In this document: positions 6,406-41,004 of the stretch, piece after piece
Layout: every line of letters begins with the position of its first letter
Numbering within the stretch: position 1 is the first letter of the stretch
From: a virus
Virus record (IMG/VR): IMGVR_UViG_3300005253_000515
Location: 1 to 41,419 of that record
Length of the DNA stretch: 41,419 nucleotides
Strand: one strand, 5' to 3'
Notes under the pieces: model-generated
The model's database searches: none
What the model saw: only the letters and a program-made list of their open reading frames with translations
Told to the model about the DNA's origin: nothing
Made by a program: the position numbers and the translations under genes

Positions 6406-8049
6406 CTAATTTCTTGAGAATGACTTAGCAGGCTGAGGTTTAGCCATCCTTTCTAGTTGCCTGATTGCCTCATTCCTCATCAAACTTCCCTTCTCCTCAA
6501 ATAACCTCCAACCACCAGCTACAGCCAAGTTGGTGTTTACCCTTCTCAGATAACCCACTCCCTGATTCATATACTGAGCAGCACTGCTTAACTCGTGGGC
6601 AGCTAATGCCATATAATTACTGGATAATTGCTCATCTGCCTGAGCTTGCTGAATATATGCCTGAGCCTCTACCATATAATTACGAGCAACATCAGCACTA
6701 CCCCTTGCTTCTTCTATATAACCTTGTGCCTCATCGTGGTATCCCCTAGCATTAGCCACATCTCCTTGAGCATACCCTAGATACCTCGCAGATATATCAC
6801 CAAAGGGACTCATAGTTGAAATCGCAGCACGCCCAGTATCTAAATCATCTAATGCTTGAGCTACCTCAGCATCTATCTTATATATTGCCCCACCAGCCTC
6901 AGTAGTTACCAGGTATACCCCTTTGAGTATCTCAGCATCCATCTTGTAAATGGCACCTTCGGCATAGGCTGTGATTAAATCTACCGCTCTATCTGATTCT
7001 GTTATACCCTTATAAAGCAAGCCAGTAGTAGGGTTAGCTGCGACATCTATTATAGCTGTCATATTCCCTATTGCTGTTGAAGCTGTGGTTAAAACAGCTA
7101 TAGCTGTTTGTGCTTCCTGAATAGGTAGTCCAGCCTTGCTCATCATTACTGCCCCTGCTGTGTACTTACAGAATACAGGTTCGGTCATAGTATCTAAGGT
7201 AGATAGCTTTAACGTCATTACAGTATCATTATCCACATCAGCCTCAAGCCCTGGGTAGAAATAAACCGAGGTAACATTGGTGGCTATGGTAGCATCTGCT
7301 GTGACTGTATAGATTTCCTTCCTATACTGAATGGTGAACTCCTGCCCTTCCTCAATCGTACCTGAAGATTGAAGACCATCAATTAGCATCGAAGTATCAC
7401 CGGCAGAATAGCCAGCGGTAAGATAAACTGCTGCTGCTAAATCAGTAAGCTGAGATACCTTGTGCCTCTTATTAAAATAAACGTGAACATCTATTCGGGA
7501 GGCTGTTTCAGCAGAGTCATCTATATACCGTGAGTTAATACCAAAGGTTAGAATATCCCCATCAATATCCTCTATCTCTCTCCACGTTCCCACAGGATAC
7601 TCAAGATGGTCTACCCATAAATAGTCAGTAACATCACCAATGTTAATCTGGTTGGAGGCGTGACACCCTTTGTTGTAAATGTAGTAGGTTTCCCCAGAAG
7701 CCATAATATCCTTAGATAAGGTCACAACCGAGGTTGAGGTATAACCAGTAATAACAGCCCACGTATCATCGGTAGTATTATGAACCACCTTGTCAACATC
7801 ACCTGCTACGAATTGAAGATTGGATGTGTCTACTAAGCTGCCAGTAGTGGTAGCCGTAGCACTACCGCCACGAGACTCAACCTGGTATACCACTCTTACG
7901 ATATGCTTGACGTAATTGGCAACGTCTCGGAGAGAGTCAGCGATAGCCTCTTGTATCTCACCATCTGTCCCCTGGTCATATATTGCCCCAGCGGTATCCT
8001 GGAGGTTAAGTTCGATGCGGTCTTGTAAATTAGCGTATGTTTGTGCCAC
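6406..8049 (-). CDS. Adaptor-like / head-tail connection structural protein
   Basis: Encodes 547 residues from GTG 8049 with GGAG six bases upstream. The N-terminus (LQDRIELNLQD, then EIQEAIADSLRDVANYV) matches the start of phage adaptor proteins that follow capsid genes in podovirus-like genomes. A strand-rich middle follows, and the last 200 residues are a long helical region with repeated Tyr/Ala heptads (YLGYAQGDVANARGYHDEA, YIEEARG, YMVEAQAYIQQA). Such helical tails occur in tail-tube/needle or fibre-collar parts. The adaptor role is by family resemblance at the N-terminus; the C-terminal half is unassigned. Confidence 0.6.
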   Translation of the reverse strand: MAQTYANLQDRIELNLQDTAGAIYDQGTDGEIQEAIADSLRDVANYVKHIVRVVYQVESRGGSATATTTGSLVDTSNLQFVAGDVDKVVHNTTDDTWAVITGYTSTSVVTLSKDIMASGETYYIYNKGCHASNQINIGDVTDYLWVDHLEYPVGTWREIEDIDGDILTFGINSRYIDDSAETASRIDVHVYFNKRHKVSQLTDLAAAVYLTAGYSAGDTSMLIDGLQSSGTIEEGQEFTIQYRKEIYTVTADATIATNVTSVYFYPGLEADVDNDTVMTLKLSTLDTMTEPVFCKYTAGAVMMSKAGLPIQEAQTAIAVLTTASTAIGNMTAIIDVAANPTTGLLYKGITESDRAVDLITAYAEGAIYKMDAEILKGVYLVTTEAGGAIYKIDAEVAQALDDLDTGRAAISTMSPFGDISARYLGYAQGDVANARGYHDEAQGYIEEARGSADVARNYMVEAQAYIQQAQADEQLSSNYMALAAHELSSAAQYMNQGVGYLRRVNTNLAVAGGWRLFEEKGSLMRNEAIRQLERMAKPQPAKSFSRN

Positions 8050-8431: not shown

Positions 8432-9759
8432 TAGCTACTGTACCTCCATTTAGTTCTTTGGTAGTTCCTCATCGCTTCACCCGCAGTCAAGGCTCGGTTA
8501 TAGACACGGACTTCACCTATAATACCTTGAGTGAAGTGCCCAGTCCCTAGATTGTCAGCACCAATTCCTAAATTAGTCCCGCTAACAGTTGCTGGAGTTG
8601 GAGTATCAGAGTTATCTAAACCACCATTGATATAGATTATCCTCGTAGTTCCGTCATAAGTGGCTATAATATGTGTCGGTGTACCTGGCGTAAGCACATC
8701 CCCAACAGTATCCAAATCGTTAGCATAGAAAGCGAATCTTATTTTCTTCGTTATTTGGACAACAAGATAAGAATCATCACTGCTTAAAGCTCCCCAGTGA
8801 ACTATCCAGCCATCTGACTCTGTATCATTGGCTGGGTTATACCAAACCTCTATAGATACAGGCTCATTGTTTTGTGGAAGTCCTGCAACCGTTGCTTTTA
8901 TAACATCAACAATACCATCAAAAGTCCTGCCATACTTATCCCAAGTAGCACCGAAGTTACTCATTGGAGTCCATAACCCCGCACTATTATCGAAGTAGCT
9001 TAAACTTTCTATCCAAGTAGCACCTACTGAGGTCATTGTCAGAGAACCTACATCATCTACTGGATTGCCTGTTCCTTCATCCATTGGGAGGTTAAATACG
9101 AGTCCTGTATCATCTGAGGCTACTGCGTTTCTACCTCTCTGGGAGTTGGTAAGAGCTTCTGGTTGTAGCATTTCACGGGAGTAGACACGAGTCCAACCGA
9201 TAGCACCAGTAAAATAGTTAAGGAGAGAGTCAATCTCAATAACACCCACAGTTATATTATCTCGCAAAGCAGTATCGGCGAACCAATCCCCGCTATCTGT
9301 GCCGCCGACAACGGTAAATTCCTCAACAGCCCCATCAAGGAAAAAACTATATGCAGTTCCGTTAGAAGAGAATACCGCATGATGCCACTTGCCATCAGTT
9401 ACAGTAGTCGTTCCTATTATCTTATCATCGGCGTCATTGTTTCTCTGTTGTAGTCGTATTGTATTTGACGTAGAAATTAAAAAGTATATAAACCGAGTGG
9501 CACTACCCTCATCAGCAGAAGAAAATAATGTTTGCCATGCCCCAGTGGTAGTAGTTCTAAACCATATCTCAATAGCACCAGCACTATCCCCGCTCCTGAA
9601 ATTAGCCACAGCATTACTGAGGTAGTCATTTCCATCAAAGCTCTCACAAAACCCCTGCTGCTCAGGGTGCCACAACGGGGAATACATGACTAGCCCGTTT
9701 AGGGGAAAGTTCAAACTCCCCTTGTTACGCCACATATTTTTACCATCATTTGCTAGCAT
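8431..9759 (-). CDS. Double LamG/concanavalin-like lectin protein (tail adhesin)
   Basis: Encodes 442 residues behind AGGAGAG. It holds two laminin-G-like jelly rolls in tandem: residues ~35-200 (SAGAIEIWFRTT, DGKWHHAVFSSNGTAYSFF, GAIGWTRVYSREM) and ~265-440 (NEPVSIEVWYNP, THIIATYDGTTRIIYING, GIIGEVRVYNRALTAGE). 'W(H)H...(Y)..G....lY.dG' and 'G.i.evRvYnRaLt..E' are the family's landmark strands. LamG domains in phages bind glycans. Likely part of the adsorption apparatus. Confidence 0.8.
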   Translation of the reverse strand: MLANDGKNMWRNKGSLNFPLNGLVMYSPLWHPEQQGFCESFDGNDYLSNAVANFRSGDSAGAIEIWFRTTTTGAWQTLFSSADEGSATRFIYFLISTSNTIRLQQRNNDADDKIIGTTTVTDGKWHHAVFSSNGTAYSFFLDGAVEEFTVVGGTDSGDWFADTALRDNITVGVIEIDSLLNYFTGAIGWTRVYSREMLQPEALTNSQRGRNAVASDDTGLVFNLPMDEGTGNPVDDVGSLTMTSVGATWIESLSYFDNSAGLWTPMSNFGATWDKYGRTFDGIVDVIKATVAGLPQNNEPVSIEVWYNPANDTESDGWIVHWGALSSDDSYLVVQITKKIRFAFYANDLDTVGDVLTPGTPTHIIATYDGTTRIIYINGGLDNSDTPTPATVSGTNLGIGADNLGTGHFTQGIIGEVRVYNRALTAGEAMRNYQRTKWRYSS

Positions 9760-11947: not shown

Positions 11948-12321
11948 TAACCCTCCTCCACTTCAAGGAATTTACCCCTTAGCGGTAGGAGGGTGTTGGC
12001 ATCTATAATACTACCCAAGACCTTGACTTTCTCGAACTCAAACTCATCAGGCCACTCACTGACAAGAACCTCAGCGAACTCCCTTGAATAGTCACCCTCA
12101 TTTTCACTACCAGGCATTACAGAAACCTGTTTTTGGTCAGGGTGAAGTACGCCATACTTCATAACTAACTTTTTCCTTTCACCCTCGATAACCAAGTATG
12201 GTGTCTGTAGCTTGGATAATATATAAGAGATACCCAAGCTATCCTTGGCGGGTAGGTCTAGTTTCCAGACCTTCGCCATATTAGAATAGGCTAACCAAAT
12301 TTCCTGATTGCGTAACTTCAC
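11947..12321 (-). CDS. Hypothetical protein
   Basis: Encodes 124 residues from a GTG at 12321, about eleven bases after AGGAGGG. Mixed alpha/beta (IWLAYSNMAKVWKLDLPAKD, TPYLVIEGERKKLVMKYGV). By position it could be a structural or assembly protein, but no motif supports a specific role. Confidence 0.6.
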   Translation of the reverse strand: MKLRNQEIWLAYSNMAKVWKLDLPAKDSLGISYILSKLQTPYLVIEGERKKLVMKYGVLHPDQKQVSVMPGSENEGDYSREFAEVLVSEWPDEFEFEKVKVLGSIIDANTLLPLRGKFLEVEEG

Positions 12322-12340
12322 CCTATTTTACCCTCCTTTT

Positions 12341-14092
12341 TTATGACCACGTTCCTATTTTCGAAATGTTATGCCACCCAGCGCTATCAGCTATAACGCC
12401 CAGGAGGTCATATTGTGCTCCACTTGTCTTACTGTTTGCTCCATCTATGAATTCAGTGGCATCGTAGCCAAATATGTATACCCCATACGTATGTGAATCA
12501 GTAGCTTTGATGAAATAGGTTGTACCTTCATTCCCTACATAAGTAGGAAGATAGAGGTAAATCCCATCGGTTGAAGCTGTGATTACACCTGCCTCAGCCA
12601 CCGTCAGATATTTGGTATCGACAGCCTTATCAGTTATCAACATTTTTACTGGAGCACCAATCACGAACTCACCAGCAGTCATCGTCAAATCATTGGTGAG
12701 TGTGGTTGTGTTTGCTGTAACCAGAATCTTGTCAACACCAGCGATAGCAACATTTACTCCTGTAGTGCCATTGACCATTGCATAGCCAACCGCATCGGAA
12801 GTCAGGTATTCCCCACCATCCTGCCCATCCAAGTAGATAACTGCCCCTTGAACAATGGATGCGTTGCCTGCTCCGAGGGCTAGTTCCCCTAATGTGAGCG
12901 TCAGGTTATTACTGGCTAGAGTAACTGCACTTGCTGTAATTGCCACTTCATCAGTGCCTGCAACAGCAAGATTTACCCCAGTCGTACCATTCAGCATAGC
13001 GTAGTCCGCAACATCCGAGGTAAGGTATTCTCCCCCCTGGTCTCCGTCAAGGTATATGTACTGCCCTTGAGCAATAGCGACACTACCAGTAGAGAGAACC
13101 AGGTTGTTGCTACCAATAGTCACAGTAGTTGCGCCAATAGCTACTTCAGTAGTACCGCTAACAGCTAGATTAACTTCAGTGGTGGCATTAAGAGTAGCTT
13201 CACTCGCAGTAGGAGAATAAAGATACTCACCACCGTCTTGTCCATCGAGATATATGACAGCGCCCTGCACCACGGAGGCATTGCCTGCCCCAAGAGCCAG
13301 TTCACCTAACGTAAGGGTTAGGTTATTTGAACCCAATGTGACCGCACTAGAACTTACTGCAACTTCGTCTGTTCCCCCGATAGAGATGTTGACAGCAGTT
13401 GTAGCATTAAGAGTAGCCTCATCTGTAGTATCCGAGGTAAGGTATTCAGCACCATCCTGAGCATCAAGGTAAATCACAGCCCCTTGGACTACAGAAGCGT
13501 TACCTGCTCCCAACGCAAGTTCTCCAAGCGTGAGAGTAAGGTTGTTAGTAGCAAGTGTTACAGCACTAGCACTCACCGCCACCTCATCGGTTCCACCAAC
13601 AGCTAGGTTCACCCCAGTTAAGCCATTCAGCATTGAGTACCCAGTGGCATCGGAGGTGAGATATTCCGTACTATCCTGCCCAGCAAGGTAGATAATAGCC
13701 CCCTCAACAACAGAGGCGTTGCCAGCAGTTAAAGTTAGGTCTCCTGCGGATAGGGTAACGTCATTAGTGGCGATTGTAACAGCAGTTCCAGTAACGTATA
13801 CCTCATCAGTTCCCGCAATAGCAAGGCTTAACCCATACGTGCCATTGAGCATTAAGTAGTTGGCAACGTCAGAAGTTATATATTCGCCCCCTTGGTCGCC
13901 ATCAAGATAGATATACTGCCCTTGGTCTATTGCTATATCAACGTTAGCAAGTACCATCGCATTAGCACTTGCATCCCAAAGCCAATATGAACCCGAAGTG
14001 TCACCAAAGAATTTGACATCGTGTCCGGCAGCGTCTTTACCTACGGTTATAGTATTATAGAATCTTTGTGCCCATCTGTGCGTTGTCGGCAT
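12341..14092 (-). CDS. Repeat-built fibre or capsid-associated protein
   Basis: Encodes 583 residues behind AAAGGAGG. Layout: an N-terminal segment (1-50) with GKDAAGHDVKFFGDTSGSYW, a motif also seen at the base of phage and virus fibre proteins; six tandem repeats of 60-73 residues (51-467) with the core 'GE.a.gAGNAS.VQGA.IYLDGQDGGEYLTSD'; and a C-terminal domain (468-583) with TYFIKATDSHTYGVYIFGY. The repeats look like coils of a beta-solenoid or trimeric shaft. It lies directly after the cement and capsid genes, so a capsid fibre is as plausible as a tail fibre. Confidence 0.65.
   Translation of the reverse strand: MPTTHRWAQRFYNTITVGKDAAGHDVKFFGDTSGSYWLWDASANAMVLANVDIAIDQGQYIYLDGDQGGEYITSDVANYLMLNGTYGLSLAIAGTDEVYVTGTAVTIATNDVTLSAGDLTLTAGNASVVEGAIIYLAGQDSTEYLTSDATGYSMLNGLTGVNLAVGGTDEVAVSASAVTLATNNLTLTLGELALGAGNASVVQGAVIYLDAQDGAEYLTSDTTDEATLNATTAVNISIGGTDEVAVSSSAVTLGSNNLTLTLGELALGAGNASVVQGAVIYLDGQDGGEYLYSPTASEATLNATTEVNLAVSGTTEVAIGATTVTIGSNNLVLSTGSVAIAQGQYIYLDGDQGGEYLTSDVADYAMLNGTTGVNLAVAGTDEVAITASAVTLASNNLTLTLGELALGAGNASIVQGAVIYLDGQDGGEYLTSDAVGYAMVNGTTGVNVAIAGVDKILVTANTTTLTNDLTMTAGEFVIGAPVKMLITDKAVDTKYLTVAEAGVITASTDGIYLYLPTYVGNEGTTYFIKATDSHTYGVYIFGYDATEFIDGANSKTSGAQYDLLGVIADSAGWHNISKIGTWS
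12692..13942 (-). repeat. Six tandem protein-coding repeats with scrambled codons
   Basis: Six units of 60, 73, 73, 73, 66 and 72 codons. Units 3, 4 and 6 encode an almost identical segment (NLTLTLGELALGAGNAS, then VVQGAVIYLD or IVQGAVIYLD), yet their codons differ at most third positions. For example, LTLTLGEL is written with different Leu, Thr and Gly codons each time. Protein sequence is conserved, DNA is not. Confidence 0.8.
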
Positions 14093-28611: not shown

Positions 28612-28628
28612 CCTACCCTCCTATATAG

Positions 28629-28706
28629 TGGGGCCGGCAGGACTCGAACCTGCAACCTTTGGTCTGTTAGCGCAAACCAATACTCTACCTACTGAGCTAC
28701 GCCCCC
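28629..28706 (-). tRNA. tRNA-like gene with enlarged anticodon arm; isotype not assignable
   Basis: 78 nt. Acceptor GGGGGCG/CGGCCCC (one G-G mismatch), TA, D arm GCTC-AGTAGGTA-GAGT, variable loop AGGTT, perfect T arm GCAGG-TTCGAGT-CCTGC, discriminator A; CCA is not encoded. The anticodon stem TTGGT/ACCAA is intact but encloses 12 nt (TTGCGCTAACAG) instead of 7, alternatively an 8-bp stem with a 6-nt loop. No standard anticodon can be read with confidence. It lies inside the late operon, between two protein genes, and must be cut out of the mRNA if functional. Confidence 0.8.
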
Positions 28707-29596: not shown

Positions 29597-29641
29597 TGTT
29601 ATCTAGACTCCAGTGGTAGACTTACCCTAATCACTAGTACA

Positions 29642-29670
29642 TAGATAGCACGAATGGGAGGAAAAGTCAA
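29642..29670 (-). promoter_or_regulatory. Sigma70-like promoter for the late leftward block
   Basis: Minus strand: TTGACT (29670-29665), 17-bp spacer, TATCTA (29647-29642), about 46 bp before the TerS start codon. It is the only good promoter seen at the head of the 27-kb block. Host-type promoter for late genes implies use of host RNA polymerase; no phage polymerase is seen in the window. Confidence 0.6.
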
Positions 29671-29697
29671 GTAAGGTATGAATTAGTGAACAGAAAT

Positions 29698-29720
29698 AGT
29701 GTTGAGTAAAGTGTTGAGTA
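29698..29720 (+). repeat. Tandem AGTGTTGAGTA pair, possible operator
   Basis: AGTGTTGAGTA occurs at 29698-29708 and 29710-29720, a 12-bp period. The same 11-mer occurs in inverse orientation at 35108-35118, in the other intergenic region. It lies about 30 bp upstream of the late promoter -35, a position suited to a regulator. Confidence 0.5.
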
Positions 29721-29902
29721 CTGGGGGGGATAAGATTAACGTAACCTTAGAGTGGAGTTAATCAAGGGGAGGGGAAGGTAAAAGGAATGAGATTTAGAAT
29801 ATAGTATATGCTCTTCGTGAAACTGCGATGTACTTGAGAGCCTCTACGTTTCTCTCGTTAAGTTTAGCATACCATACCAAGAGGGGTAGTCTCAAGCTAA
29901 TC

Positions 29903-30028
29903 TATCACCCAAAAGGATGATTTTGGCATCACCTGAATGGGTGATTTGCTATCACCCAAAAGTATTATCGGCAACTGATATTGTATCACCCAAAAGGATG
30001 AGCACAGAATCACCCATTTGAGGGATGA
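29903..30028 (+). repeat. ATCACCC repeat cluster (iteron- or operator-like)
   Basis: TATCACCCAAAAGGATGA occurs perfectly at 29903-29920 and 29984-30001. Shortened copies begin at 29950 (TATCACCCAAAAG) and 30009 (ATCACCCATTTGAGGGATGA). A palindromic version ATCACC-TGAAT-GGGTGAT lies at 29928-29945. Together five elements fill 126 bp of the divergent intergenic region. The rest of 29597-30091 shows no coding potential I trust. Confidence 0.7.
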
Positions 30029-30091
30029 CAACGTGCTAACGACTGTGCTATTGTGAAACTGTAAGTTAAATAAAACATAGGAGGCGACAAA

Positions 30092-30211
30092 ATGAATATC
30101 AGGTTAGAGATTGCAAAGAGGTTAGCACCGATAGCAGTGCCTGCAATACACGAGATACCGGTGGCGTTGCCGATGCCAGAGGTTATCACTCTACCACTGA
30201 AGAGGCCATAA
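30092..30211 (+). CDS. Short Pro-rich peptide ahead of the structured RNA
   Basis: Encodes 39 residues behind AGGAGG (seven-base spacing). Sequence MNIRLEIAKRLAPIAVPAIH, then PVALPMPEVITLPLKRP. Not recognised. It is the first gene of the rightward block and ends 8 bp before the structured non-coding segment, so it could be a leader peptide or a 5' exon. Confidence 0.5.
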   Translation: MNIRLEIAKRLAPIAVPAIHEIPVALPMPEVITLPLKRP

Positions 30212-30219
30212 TGCCGAAA

Positions 30220-30660
30220 CTACCCTCTGGGGTAGTCGCCAGGGACTAGCAATCCTGGCCTGATGAGGCAAGCTAGACAACAATAGGCTTATATCAGACA
30301 GCTAACGTTAGTGAAACTAGACAAGTTGAAGGTTATACATCGCCAAGTCTGCTAGGCTTAGCCGGGGTATCCCTTGTAACCCGGTGGTCAAAGCAAGGGG
30401 AAGCTATCAAGTGAAAGGAAGCTCTGGAGCGATAGCGAGGTAGTTATACTGAAAGGCTAGGGTACTATAGGCAATCCTTATGACTAGAAGCCTAGATAAG
30501 CCTTACTGAGTAAGCGGGTTAAAGGAAACCTCCCCGACAGCAATAGGATACTAGCCTTCCGCAAGGAAGAGTATAAATAATGAGGGGCTAGCAGCCGGGT
30601 TACGGTTCGGCTGACTACCTCTCTGGGACACAAAGCCTAGCCTCCACGTGGTGTGTCCTG
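30220..30660 (+). ncRNA. Large structured RNA candidate (about 440 nt), family unknown
   Basis: No ORF fits 30212-30690, but complementary segments are dense. A long-range pair links 30231-30237 GGTAGTC to 30613-30619 GACTACC (competing with a local CTACCC/GGGTAG hairpin at 30220-30235). An H-type pseudoknot joins CCGGG 30362-30366/CCCGG 30380-30384 with CCCTTG 30371-30376/CAAGGG 30394-30399. Further stems are GCTATC 30403/GATAGC 30431; AAGGC-TAGG 30453-30461/CCTA-GATAA-GCCTT 30491-30504; and CTAGCC 30551/GGCTAG 30586 enclosing CTTCC-GCAA-GGAAG with a GNRA loop. AGCCG/CGGCT 30593-30612 and GGACACA 30626/TGTGTCC 30652 close the 3' part. Could be a large phage RNA (GOLLD/ROOL type), an intron or something new. 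Confidence 0.6.
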
Positions 30661-30690
30661 GGTAACGCTAATAAGGCTAAGAGGTATAAG

Positions 30691-31089
30691 ATGCTAAAAA
30701 CAATTGAGGCACTAAGATTGGAGAACCAAGCTAGAGTTGATACTACTGCTCGGCGTGATGTAGTCAGGGACGGACTCTATTACAACTTCCGCTATCGTAA
30801 TGACAGCTACAAAGCACGTAAGGCAATGATACACCCTACTTTAATGATTGCCAAGCGGGGTGACTCTATGCTTCGCTTATATGATGATGGCTCACATCAA
30901 CCCACTAAGAACCAAGAAGCCGCTATGATTAGCAAGTGTAAGGGATGGCACCAAAAGGAACGCATCTTAAAACAATTACAGATGCCGGCTTACCGGCAAT
31001 GGCTCAAGGATAACAGGCTAAAAACTAAAGATAATCCCTATTCTTCTTGGCTTATTAACGTGGTAAATAGCTGTAACAGTAGTAAATAA
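30691..31089 (+). CDS. Hypothetical basic protein
   Basis: Encodes 132 residues behind AGAGGT. Rich in Arg, Lys and Tyr (GLYYNFRYRNDSYKARKAM, KGWHQKERILKQLQMPAYRQW). Basic charge suggests nucleic-acid contact. It starts at the 3' edge of the structured RNA, whose folding could affect its translation. Confidence 0.6.
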   Translation: MLKTIEALRLENQARVDTTARRDVVRDGLYYNFRYRNDSYKARKAMIHPTLMIAKRGDSMLRLYDDGSHQPTKNQEAAMISKCKGWHQKERILKQLQMPAYRQWLKDNRLKTKDNPYSSWLINVVNSCNSSK

Positions 31090-31104
31090 AAGGAGGTAAA
31101 GGGA

Positions 31105-31281
31105 ATGAATAACCTAAAGAAACTAACAAAGGGGCAGCTAATACATCTGGTAGTCAACGTCTGTGGCAAGGACACGGGAATGATAGAAGCGAATCTAAGG
31201 AAATGTCTGGCAACACAACAGACCGCTATTGATAGCTGTCGGGACTGCCAGGACATAGCAACAAGGCTTAATGTAAGCTAA
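31105..31281 (+). CDS. Small helical protein
   Basis: Encodes 58 residues behind AAGGAGG. Helical with four Cys, including CRDC near the C-terminus (NVCGKD, KCLA, SCRDCQD). Not recognised. Confidence 0.55.
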   Translation: MNNLKKLTKGQLIHLVVNVCGKDTGMIEANLRKCLATQQTAIDSCRDCQDIATRLNVS

Positions 31282-31371
31282 CCTCTTCACCCACTGGCTC
31301 TCAGGTTCTTCATCGACTCCTGGGTGCCAGCAGTGAGTAGGATAGCTCATAGCACATTAACAATTGAATAG

Positions 31372-31711
31372 TTCGACAAGCTCACTACCTGTGGCGAGAA
31401 GCGGTAGCGAGCTATAAATAGAGCTTAAAGGTTGGATATACCGGGCCGGCGGAAGGAGTAAGCGTGAAAAAGTATAATGTGTCAGTTACATTTACCATTC
31501 AAGCAACCAGCAGAAACCAAGCGTGGGATTTAGCCGAGGAACTTATTGATAAGCACTTACGCAACCTGGCAAATGTTCATAGCGTGACCGAACTCCCAAA
31601 CCCAGACTGGTGGATAGCCGTCAACGAACCTATTAAAGCGAGATAAAATAAAACATAGCCGGCCCGGCATATCGAGCAATTCACACTGAGCATAGTCGAA
31701 GTGTTAAGCTC
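31372..31711 (+). repeat. Inverted, REP-like repeats flanking a small gene
   Basis: Left of the 31464 gene: TTCGACAAGCTCA (31372), GAGCTTAA (31421-31428), CCGGGCCGGC (31441-31450). Right of it: GCCGGCCCGG (31658-31667), CTGAGCATAGTCGAA (31686-31700), TTAAGCTC (31704-31711). Each left element has its reverse complement, perfect or near, on the right. TTCGACAAGCTCA and CTGAGC...GTCGAA are common forms of dispersed palindromic repeats in bacterial genomes. The rest of 31282-31463 carries nothing else I recognise. Confidence 0.6.
31464..31646 (+). CDS. Small alpha/beta protein inside the inverted-repeat cassette
   Basis: Encodes 60 residues from a GTG with GGAAGGAG upstream. Pattern strand (KKYNVSVTFTIQATS), helix (RNQAWDLAEELIDKHL), strand: the same 'V.f.i.A.s...A...A' logic as the 32602-32784 protein. 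Function unknown. Confidence 0.6.
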   Translation: MKKYNVSVTFTIQATSRNQAWDLAEELIDKHLRNLANVHSVTELPNPDWWIAVNEPIKAR

Positions 31712-40462: not shown

Positions 40463-40582
40463 ATGAGAGTCTGTAATTGTGCTTATTGTCGTTCAGGTAC
40501 TACTAGGGAAGAGCGGTTTAAGGCAACAAACAATACGGTGAAGAGGACTATGGAAATACTAAAAAGGAGAGTAAGGAAATGA
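40463..40582 (+). CDS. Small basic Cys protein
   Basis: Encodes 39 residues. CNCAYC at the start, then a basic helix (NNTVKRTMEILKRRVRK). Abuts the previous stop and overlaps the next start by 4 bp. Possible RNA- or DNA-binding peptide. Confidence 0.5.
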   Translation: MRVCNCAYCRSGTTREERFKATNNTVKRTMEILKRRVRK

Positions 40583-41004
40583 TTAAAGAAGAACTACAGA
40601 CACAAATCAAGGTGGTAGCTGAGGCACGGCATAAAATAACCGAACTCAGGGAAGAAAAGAACATCGCTTTGTCTATGTGGGAAAATGAAAACAAGGAACT
40701 CTTACGCTCACTGGACATTATGACGGAAGAAGTGAGTGTGGTTGAGGCATGGTTGCGCACTCTCACACTGAAAGCCTACAATGAGACTGGTAGCAAAGCC
40801 CCTGCCGTTGGGGTATCTGTAAAGATGTTTGAAGTCTTGAATTATGATGCGGATAAGGCAAAGGAATGGGCTTTAGAGCATCGGGTTGTCTTGAGTCTTG
40901 ATAAGAAATCCTTTGAAGATTTTGCAAAGGCTACGCCACTAGAGTTCGTTTCTATTACTGAAGAACCGAGGGCACAAATCGCAACTAACCTACCAGTGGA
41001 ATAG
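40579..41004 (+). CDS. Conserved phage protein, coiled-coil N-terminus
   Basis: Encodes 141 residues. A long N-terminal coiled coil (residues 1-60) is followed by a compact domain: LKAYNETGSKAPAVGVSV, YDADKAKEWALEHRVVLSLD, FEDFAKATPLEFVSITEEP. This pattern occurs in many tailed phages next to recombination or single-strand-annealing genes, but its job is not established. It may work with host-nuclease inhibition or recombination. Confidence 0.65.
   Translation: MIKEELQTQIKVVAEARHKITELREEKNIALSMWENENKELLRSLDIMTEEVSVVEAWLRTLTLKAYNETGSKAPAVGVSVKMFEVLNYDADKAKEWALEHRVVLSLDKKSFEDFAKATPLEFVSITEEPRAQIATNLPVE

Follow-up and report, generated by a model that had tools for sequence, protein, structure and literature searches.

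A type II hammerhead and a theta ribozyme bracket a putative self-excised non-coding RNA in a phage-type virus record

Organization of the locus

The window analysed here is the entire 41,419-base virus record IMGVR_UViG_3300005253_000515, and the segment under study is 30212-30690. The segment was read and folded, and comparisons were made to Rfam, to viral and genomic contigs and to annotated phages. A previous sequence-only reading had described it as a highly structured non-coding RNA with no credible ORF. No plus-strand ORF of at least 20 aa was found within 30212-30690, which bears out the second part of this description, and the evidence supports the presence of a non-coding RNA here. 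The segment would belong to an early transcript, flanked by ORFs of 39 aa and 132 aa, with the following features:

30092..30211, plus strand: 39-aa ORF (MNIRLEIAKRLAPIAVPAIHEIPVALPMPEVITLPLKRP) with an AGGAGG ribosome-binding site and a TAA stop at 30209-30211
30212..30277, plus strand: type II hammerhead ribozyme (Rfam RF02276)
30238..30624, plus strand: predicted released RNA of 387 nt, bounded by two predicted cuts
30625..30680, plus strand: theta (minimal HDV-like) ribozyme, scored with a covariance model built without the window sequence
30691..31089, plus strand: 132-aa ORF of unassigned function, with a possible AGAGG ribosome-binding site 3' of theta P2

The TAA stop of the 39-aa ORF abuts the first base of the hammerhead. 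Neither ORF has a family match, and a search for relatives of the 132-aa ORF found none. Upstream of the 39-aa ORF, the divergent region (29890-30031) contains TATCACCCAAAAGGATGA repeats and a 24-nt inverted repeat; its local folding z is low (-3.4), and it is possibly operator or origin sequence. A tRNA-Arg gene with the anticodon GCG lies on the minus strand at 28628-28706, near the terminase genes.

A type II hammerhead at the 5' edge

When the window was searched against all Rfam families, RF02276 matched the 5' edge with 40.4 bits against a gathering score of 37 (E 5.7e-5). The elements of this hammerhead are, all on the plus strand:

30212-30215/30267-30270: stem II
30216-30219: GAAA
30219-30225/30230-30236: stem III
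30238-30243/30254-30259: stem I
30246-30250/30272-30276: CUAGC of loop I and GCUAG of the tail, which can pair over 5 bp
30260-30266: core strand CUGAUGA

The core is complete, with CUGANGA, GAAA and the cleavage triplet NUH. Stem II is open and the other two stems are closed, and minimum-energy folding of 30212-30271 returns this same hammerhead. Cleavage is predicted directly 3' of GUC, after position 30237. Most type II hammerheads have a pseudoknot between loop I and the 3' tail (Perreault et al. 2011, PMC3088659), and we found such a pairing of at least 4 bp in 57 of 124 phage type II hammerheads. In its core, its three stems with stem II open, its loop I-tail pseudoknot and its intergenic site just past a stop codon, the window hammerhead resembles the other phage members (RF02276, PMC3088659).

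The sequence-only reading had noted a hairpin at 30220-30235 and had suggested that it competes with a long-range pair as a switch. The hairpin exists, though as stem III of the hammerhead. The switch is doubtful because one arm of the long-range pair, the 5' one at 30231-30237, precedes the predicted hammerhead cut and would be missing from the released RNA, and the hammerhead is transcribed about 350 nt ahead of the competing strand at 30613-30619.

A theta ribozyme at the 3' edge

At the other edge of the segment, a leave-one-out covariance model scored the theta ribozyme with 59.2 bits (E 1.7e-15). Its helices, on the plus strand, are:

30625-30631/30653-30659: P1, 7 bp, with a G-U wobble at the cut
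30634-30638/30674-30678: P2
30640-30642/30650-30652: P3

L3 reads CCUCCACG, J4/2 is CUAA with the expected catalytic C at 30668, and P4 is absent. P2 has 5 bp and is one column off the family's usual 6. The cut is predicted before G30625. The Rfam search reported no separate theta family; the neighbouring HDV family RF02682 matched here with 35.0 bits (E 2.7e-4), under its gathering score of 44, as it likewise does for typical tRNA-linked thetas (34.7 bits in contig L025 and 29.3 in L051). From this sub-threshold match a pattern was derived, with which 30 viral loci were collected and aligned. The aligned loci make up a single family, which corresponds to the theta ribozymes described by Kienbeck et al. 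2024 (PMC10879173), and P1, P2 and P3 covary across it (96.5% of cells paired versus 61.5% after shuffling; covariation score 0.913 versus 0.204). The window ribozyme shares with that family P1, P2, P3, the L3 sequence, the catalytic C, the lack of P4, the cut at the 5' edge and a tailed-phage-type setting. Unlike the tRNA-linked members, it would end an orphan non-coding RNA and precede an ORF, and it is not associated with a tRNA: the locus holds no tRNA or tmRNA, association being defined as a cut at most 5 nt from a tRNA 3' end. Thetas not linked to tRNAs were left unexplained by Kienbeck et al. 2024 (PMC10879173). A gate on theta folding through a 9-bp complementarity (30351-30359/30633-30641) was equalled in 23 of 300 shuffles and is not claimed.

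The identities of both edge elements as ribozymes are close to certain, and the earlier statement that no hallmarks were recognisable is wrong, since a type II hammerhead and a theta are known self-cleaving ribozymes.

The interior of the predicted RNA

The interior (30278-30624) has no Rfam family match. The earlier exclusion of ROOL, GOLLD and group I and II introns holds: across 29600-31500, the Rfam models for ROOL, GOLLD, OLE, raiA, HEARO, group I/II introns and tmRNA gave no match even at E 10. No sequence search returned a homologue of the interior, and therefore its structure has no covariation support. Pattern scans for the interior, and for a hammerhead with the same pseudoknot tail, gave no matches. 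The candidate elements, on the plus strand, are:

30362..30399: possible H-type pseudoknot, CCGGG 30362-30366/CCCGG 30380-30384 with CCCTTG 30371-30376/CAAGGG 30394-30399
30437..30621: possible 10-bp long-range helix, GAGGTAGTTA 30437-30446/TGACTACCTC 30612-30621
30556-30569: CTTCC-GCAA-GGAAG, enclosed by CTAGCC at 30551 and GGCTAG at 30586

The long-range helix would possibly hold the 3' end of the predicted product. The pseudoknot is weak evidence because 14% of shuffles have one of equal strength. The complementary blocks listed in the sequence-only reading are present where it had placed them, including GGTAGTC 30231-30237/GACTACC 30613-30619 and the stem at 30626-30658, which it had taken for a terminal stem and which is theta P1 enclosing P3.

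Its description as highly structured divides into two parts. In folding energy the segment is ordinary, with z against dinucleotide shuffles of -0.87 for 30212-30690, -0.75 for 30238-30624 and -0.27 for 30278-30624. A comparison with shuffles had been named in advance as a refuting test, and because the minimum free energy is ordinary, it goes against the fold as a whole, whose stability equals that of shuffles. Perfect Watson-Crick blocks, on the other hand, are in excess: there are 16 of 7 bp versus 5.0 expected, or about threefold (2 of 300 shuffles reach 16), and six of 8 bp versus 1.25 expected (5 of 300 shuffles reach 6). The excess is larger in only three of the 119 genome windows compared.

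Several other readings of the interior were set aside. CTAG is 8-fold denser in the segment than in the rest of the genome; against a dinucleotide-shuffle average of 6.8 there are 10 occurrences, and we do not claim the enrichment as a signal. Local alignment of the interior with contigs L009 and L022, and with the regions upstream of thetas, gave only a modest z with mononucleotide shuffles, which was lost with dinucleotide shuffles and stricter gaps. A tmRNA had come into question from the size, the pseudoknots and the 3' theta; there is no T arm and no match in Rfam or ARAGORN. For a group I intron, P7-like words are scattered and Rfam gave no match.

Rarity of the arrangement among phage ribozymes

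A scan for type II hammerheads returned at least 120 viral loci, and 107 with enough downstream sequence were compared. Among the matches listed, the next ORF of at least 60 aa follows these 107 hammerheads at a median of 28 nt (90th percentile 159), and none of them exceeds 350 nt. The window hammerhead, in contrast, is followed by 421 nt without such an ORF and then by a second ribozyme. Apart from the window's own, no theta was found in 742 kb made up of the surroundings of hammerhead loci and the window, nor in another 41 hammerhead contigs searched over their full length, where one 15-bit partial match was discounted as chance. Conversely, a search of 50 theta-bearing or terminase-related viral contigs and three phage records turned up no type II hammerhead. 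The window itself was recovered in both the theta and the hammerhead searches. Its terminase relatives (20 loci, 35-58% identity) gave no type II hammerhead, no theta in the nine records searched, and none close enough for an alignment of the region. From these surveys of hammerheads, thetas and next ORFs, the hammerhead-RNA-theta arrangement is rare and perhaps unique in the collections searched, where the patterns were exact and the nearest records are possibly not covered.

These surroundings also bear on the main rival explanation, which is well precedented in phages and in which the two cuts only segment an operon: they would separate the 39-aa and 132-aa messages and give them ends of different stability, and the 387 nt between would be a functionless spacer. 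Since other phages place ribozymes between ordinary small ORFs, such segmentation would look much the same. In phages, type II hammerheads mostly occupy gaps between ORFs, with the short distances given above among the matches listed, and arrays of five to eight hammerheads exist: contigs L067, L133 and L077 carry 8, 6 and 5 type II hammerheads on one strand, spaced by about 250 to 1200 nt. In contig L042 (2506-3262), HDV-like, Twister-P5 and theta ribozymes occur inside 760 nt among small ORFs. The ordinary folding energy of the interior also fits a spacer. However, 387 nt without a sense ORF of even 20 aa differs from all 107 compared cases among the matches listed, the perfect complementary blocks are in excess, and a single cut would suffice for separating two messages. 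We consider segmentation a possible but rather unlikely explanation.

Thetas at the boundaries of other phage RNAs

Many thetas elsewhere cut 0-4 nt past tRNA or tmRNA 3' ends, and therefore marking RNA 3' ends is an apparent role of this ribozyme. The cuts at phage tmRNA 3' ends were seen in contigs L025 (3227-3722), L036 (6500-6905) and L048 (4364-4729). Contig L052 has a RAGATH-1 hammerhead (9447-9521, minus strand) with a tRNA-linked theta about 8 kb away in the same phage contig. Two further orphan non-coding RNAs end at a theta, L194 520-840 and L195 507-760 (both minus strand; G092 and G021). Both are more stable than all of their shuffles (z -3.0 and -5.3), and Rfam gave no match for either. 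The phage G092 encodes a protein with 50% identity to the window ORF at 40579-41004, and its theta-ended RNA lies in a similar setting; no type II hammerhead was found in it, and blastn against the window matched only the theta at this place.

Thetas also adjoin large phage RNAs. Of the eight ROOLs in theta-bearing contigs, six are immediately preceded by a theta or HDV-like ribozyme. This share cannot be extended to ROOLs at large, as these loci were picked for having a theta. Examples are L038 (theta 6636-6693, ROOL 6693-7289) and L050 (theta 11972-12029, ROOL 12037-12643); L056, L053, L030 and L196 are further ROOL-linked contigs. In L032, a theta at 7113-7169 lies upstream of a GOLLD at 7499-7918, about 330 nt before the part modelled in Rfam, and the GOLLD match (77.2 bits) is under the gathering score. 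The text of the theta paper (PMC10879173) names neither ROOL nor GOLLD. Like ROOL, GOLLD and other large ornate phage RNAs (PMC12286853), the window RNA would be a large phage non-coding RNA; it is smaller and has no Rfam match, and its theta is 3' whereas that of ROOL is 5'.

A model for self-excision of the non-coding RNA

The sequence carries intact ribozyme cores in matching order and orientation, with predicted cut positions and an ORF-free sense strand between them. We favour, as the simplest reading and one that is rather probable on the whole, a natural hammerhead-RNA-HDV cassette that excises a functional 387-nt non-coding RNA. The 39-aa ORF, the non-coding cistron and the 132-aa ORF would be transcribed as one RNA. 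The hammerhead just past the first stop would cut after 30237 and the theta just ahead of the second ORF before 30625, so that the 387-nt RNA would be freed without any protein, with a 5'-OH and a 2',3'-cyclic phosphate at its ends. Its 5' end would be folded, made of the retained stem I and loop-tail pseudoknot of the hammerhead, and the downstream mRNA would keep the theta as its 5' leader. A ribosome halted at the stop codon (30209-30211) would sit over the hammerhead's 5' strand, and therefore cutting may await the end of translation. After the cut, the predicted fold suggests that the CUGAUGA strand can refold with about 30285-30297, which would hinder the reverse reaction; in a hammerhead that is still uncut, such refolding could also block activity. 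Both ribozymes likely cut in the cell, and in our judgement the freed RNA would be functional, structural or regulatory, and no by-product. Counting against the excision of a functional RNA, the interior folds no better than shuffles and has neither a homologue nor a family match.

The fate of the ends allows two other explanations. Hammerhead and HDV-type cleavage both leave 5'-OH and 2',3'-cyclic phosphate ends, exactly those that a host RtcB-like ligase could join into a phage circular RNA. In retrozymes and viroid-like agents, ribozyme-delimited RNAs are reported to circularise (PMC4918200, PMC7761336), and an RNA ligase gene is reported in 54.5% of theta-bearing phages (Kienbeck et al., PMC10879173). 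Nevertheless, no ligase was recognised among the scanned window proteins, which are a subset from a possibly incomplete record, and nothing in the sequence demands a circle; we regard circularisation as improbable. By the same end chemistry, the leader with its cyclic phosphate could be ligated to the downstream mRNA with its 5'-OH, and the 387 nt would be removed as a ribozyme-made intron. The ends are compatible, and GGUAGUC at the 3' end of the leader complements GACUACC close to the excised piece's 3' end. However, the joining would fuse no reading frames because the 39-aa ORF stops before the hammerhead, the scanned window proteins again include no recognised ligase, and the two cuts need no coordination. 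Such an intron is very improbable. More broadly, the idea that the locus represents a new class of phage RNA, self-excised by two unrelated ribozymes, a 5' hammerhead and a 3' HDV-like one, and during infection either made into a circle or maintained as a stable structural RNA, is a speculative one that we hold to be doubtful.

Relation to known systems and implications

For the favoured excision of a functional RNA, there is an analogue among laboratory constructs. A 5' hammerhead in the laboratory normally sits wholly upstream of the product. The window arrangement, by contrast, is natural, combines a type II hammerhead with a minimal theta, and would leave part of the hammerhead on the product. 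In order and job the two are alike: in the hammerhead-RNA-HDV transcription cassette (PMC9521606), the hammerhead sets the 5' end and the HDV-type ribozyme the 3' end. Retrozymes and viroid-like RNAs (PMC4918200, PMC7761336) are likewise a few hundred nucleotides long, with self-cleaving ribozymes as borders and ligatable ends. The window differs from them in having two different ribozymes and a single copy in a DNA phage, with no tandem copies and no evidence of replication.

Self-cleaving ribozymes are common in phages, and most have no known role. Here two classes bracket one orphan RNA, and therefore a concrete function becomes testable, the protein-free making of a non-coding RNA with defined ends. 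If true, this would be a natural counterpart of the standard laboratory cassette. Taken together with the thetas beside ROOL, GOLLD and tmRNA, the locus suggests a wide use of small ribozymes by phages to delimit their non-coding RNAs, beyond tRNAs.
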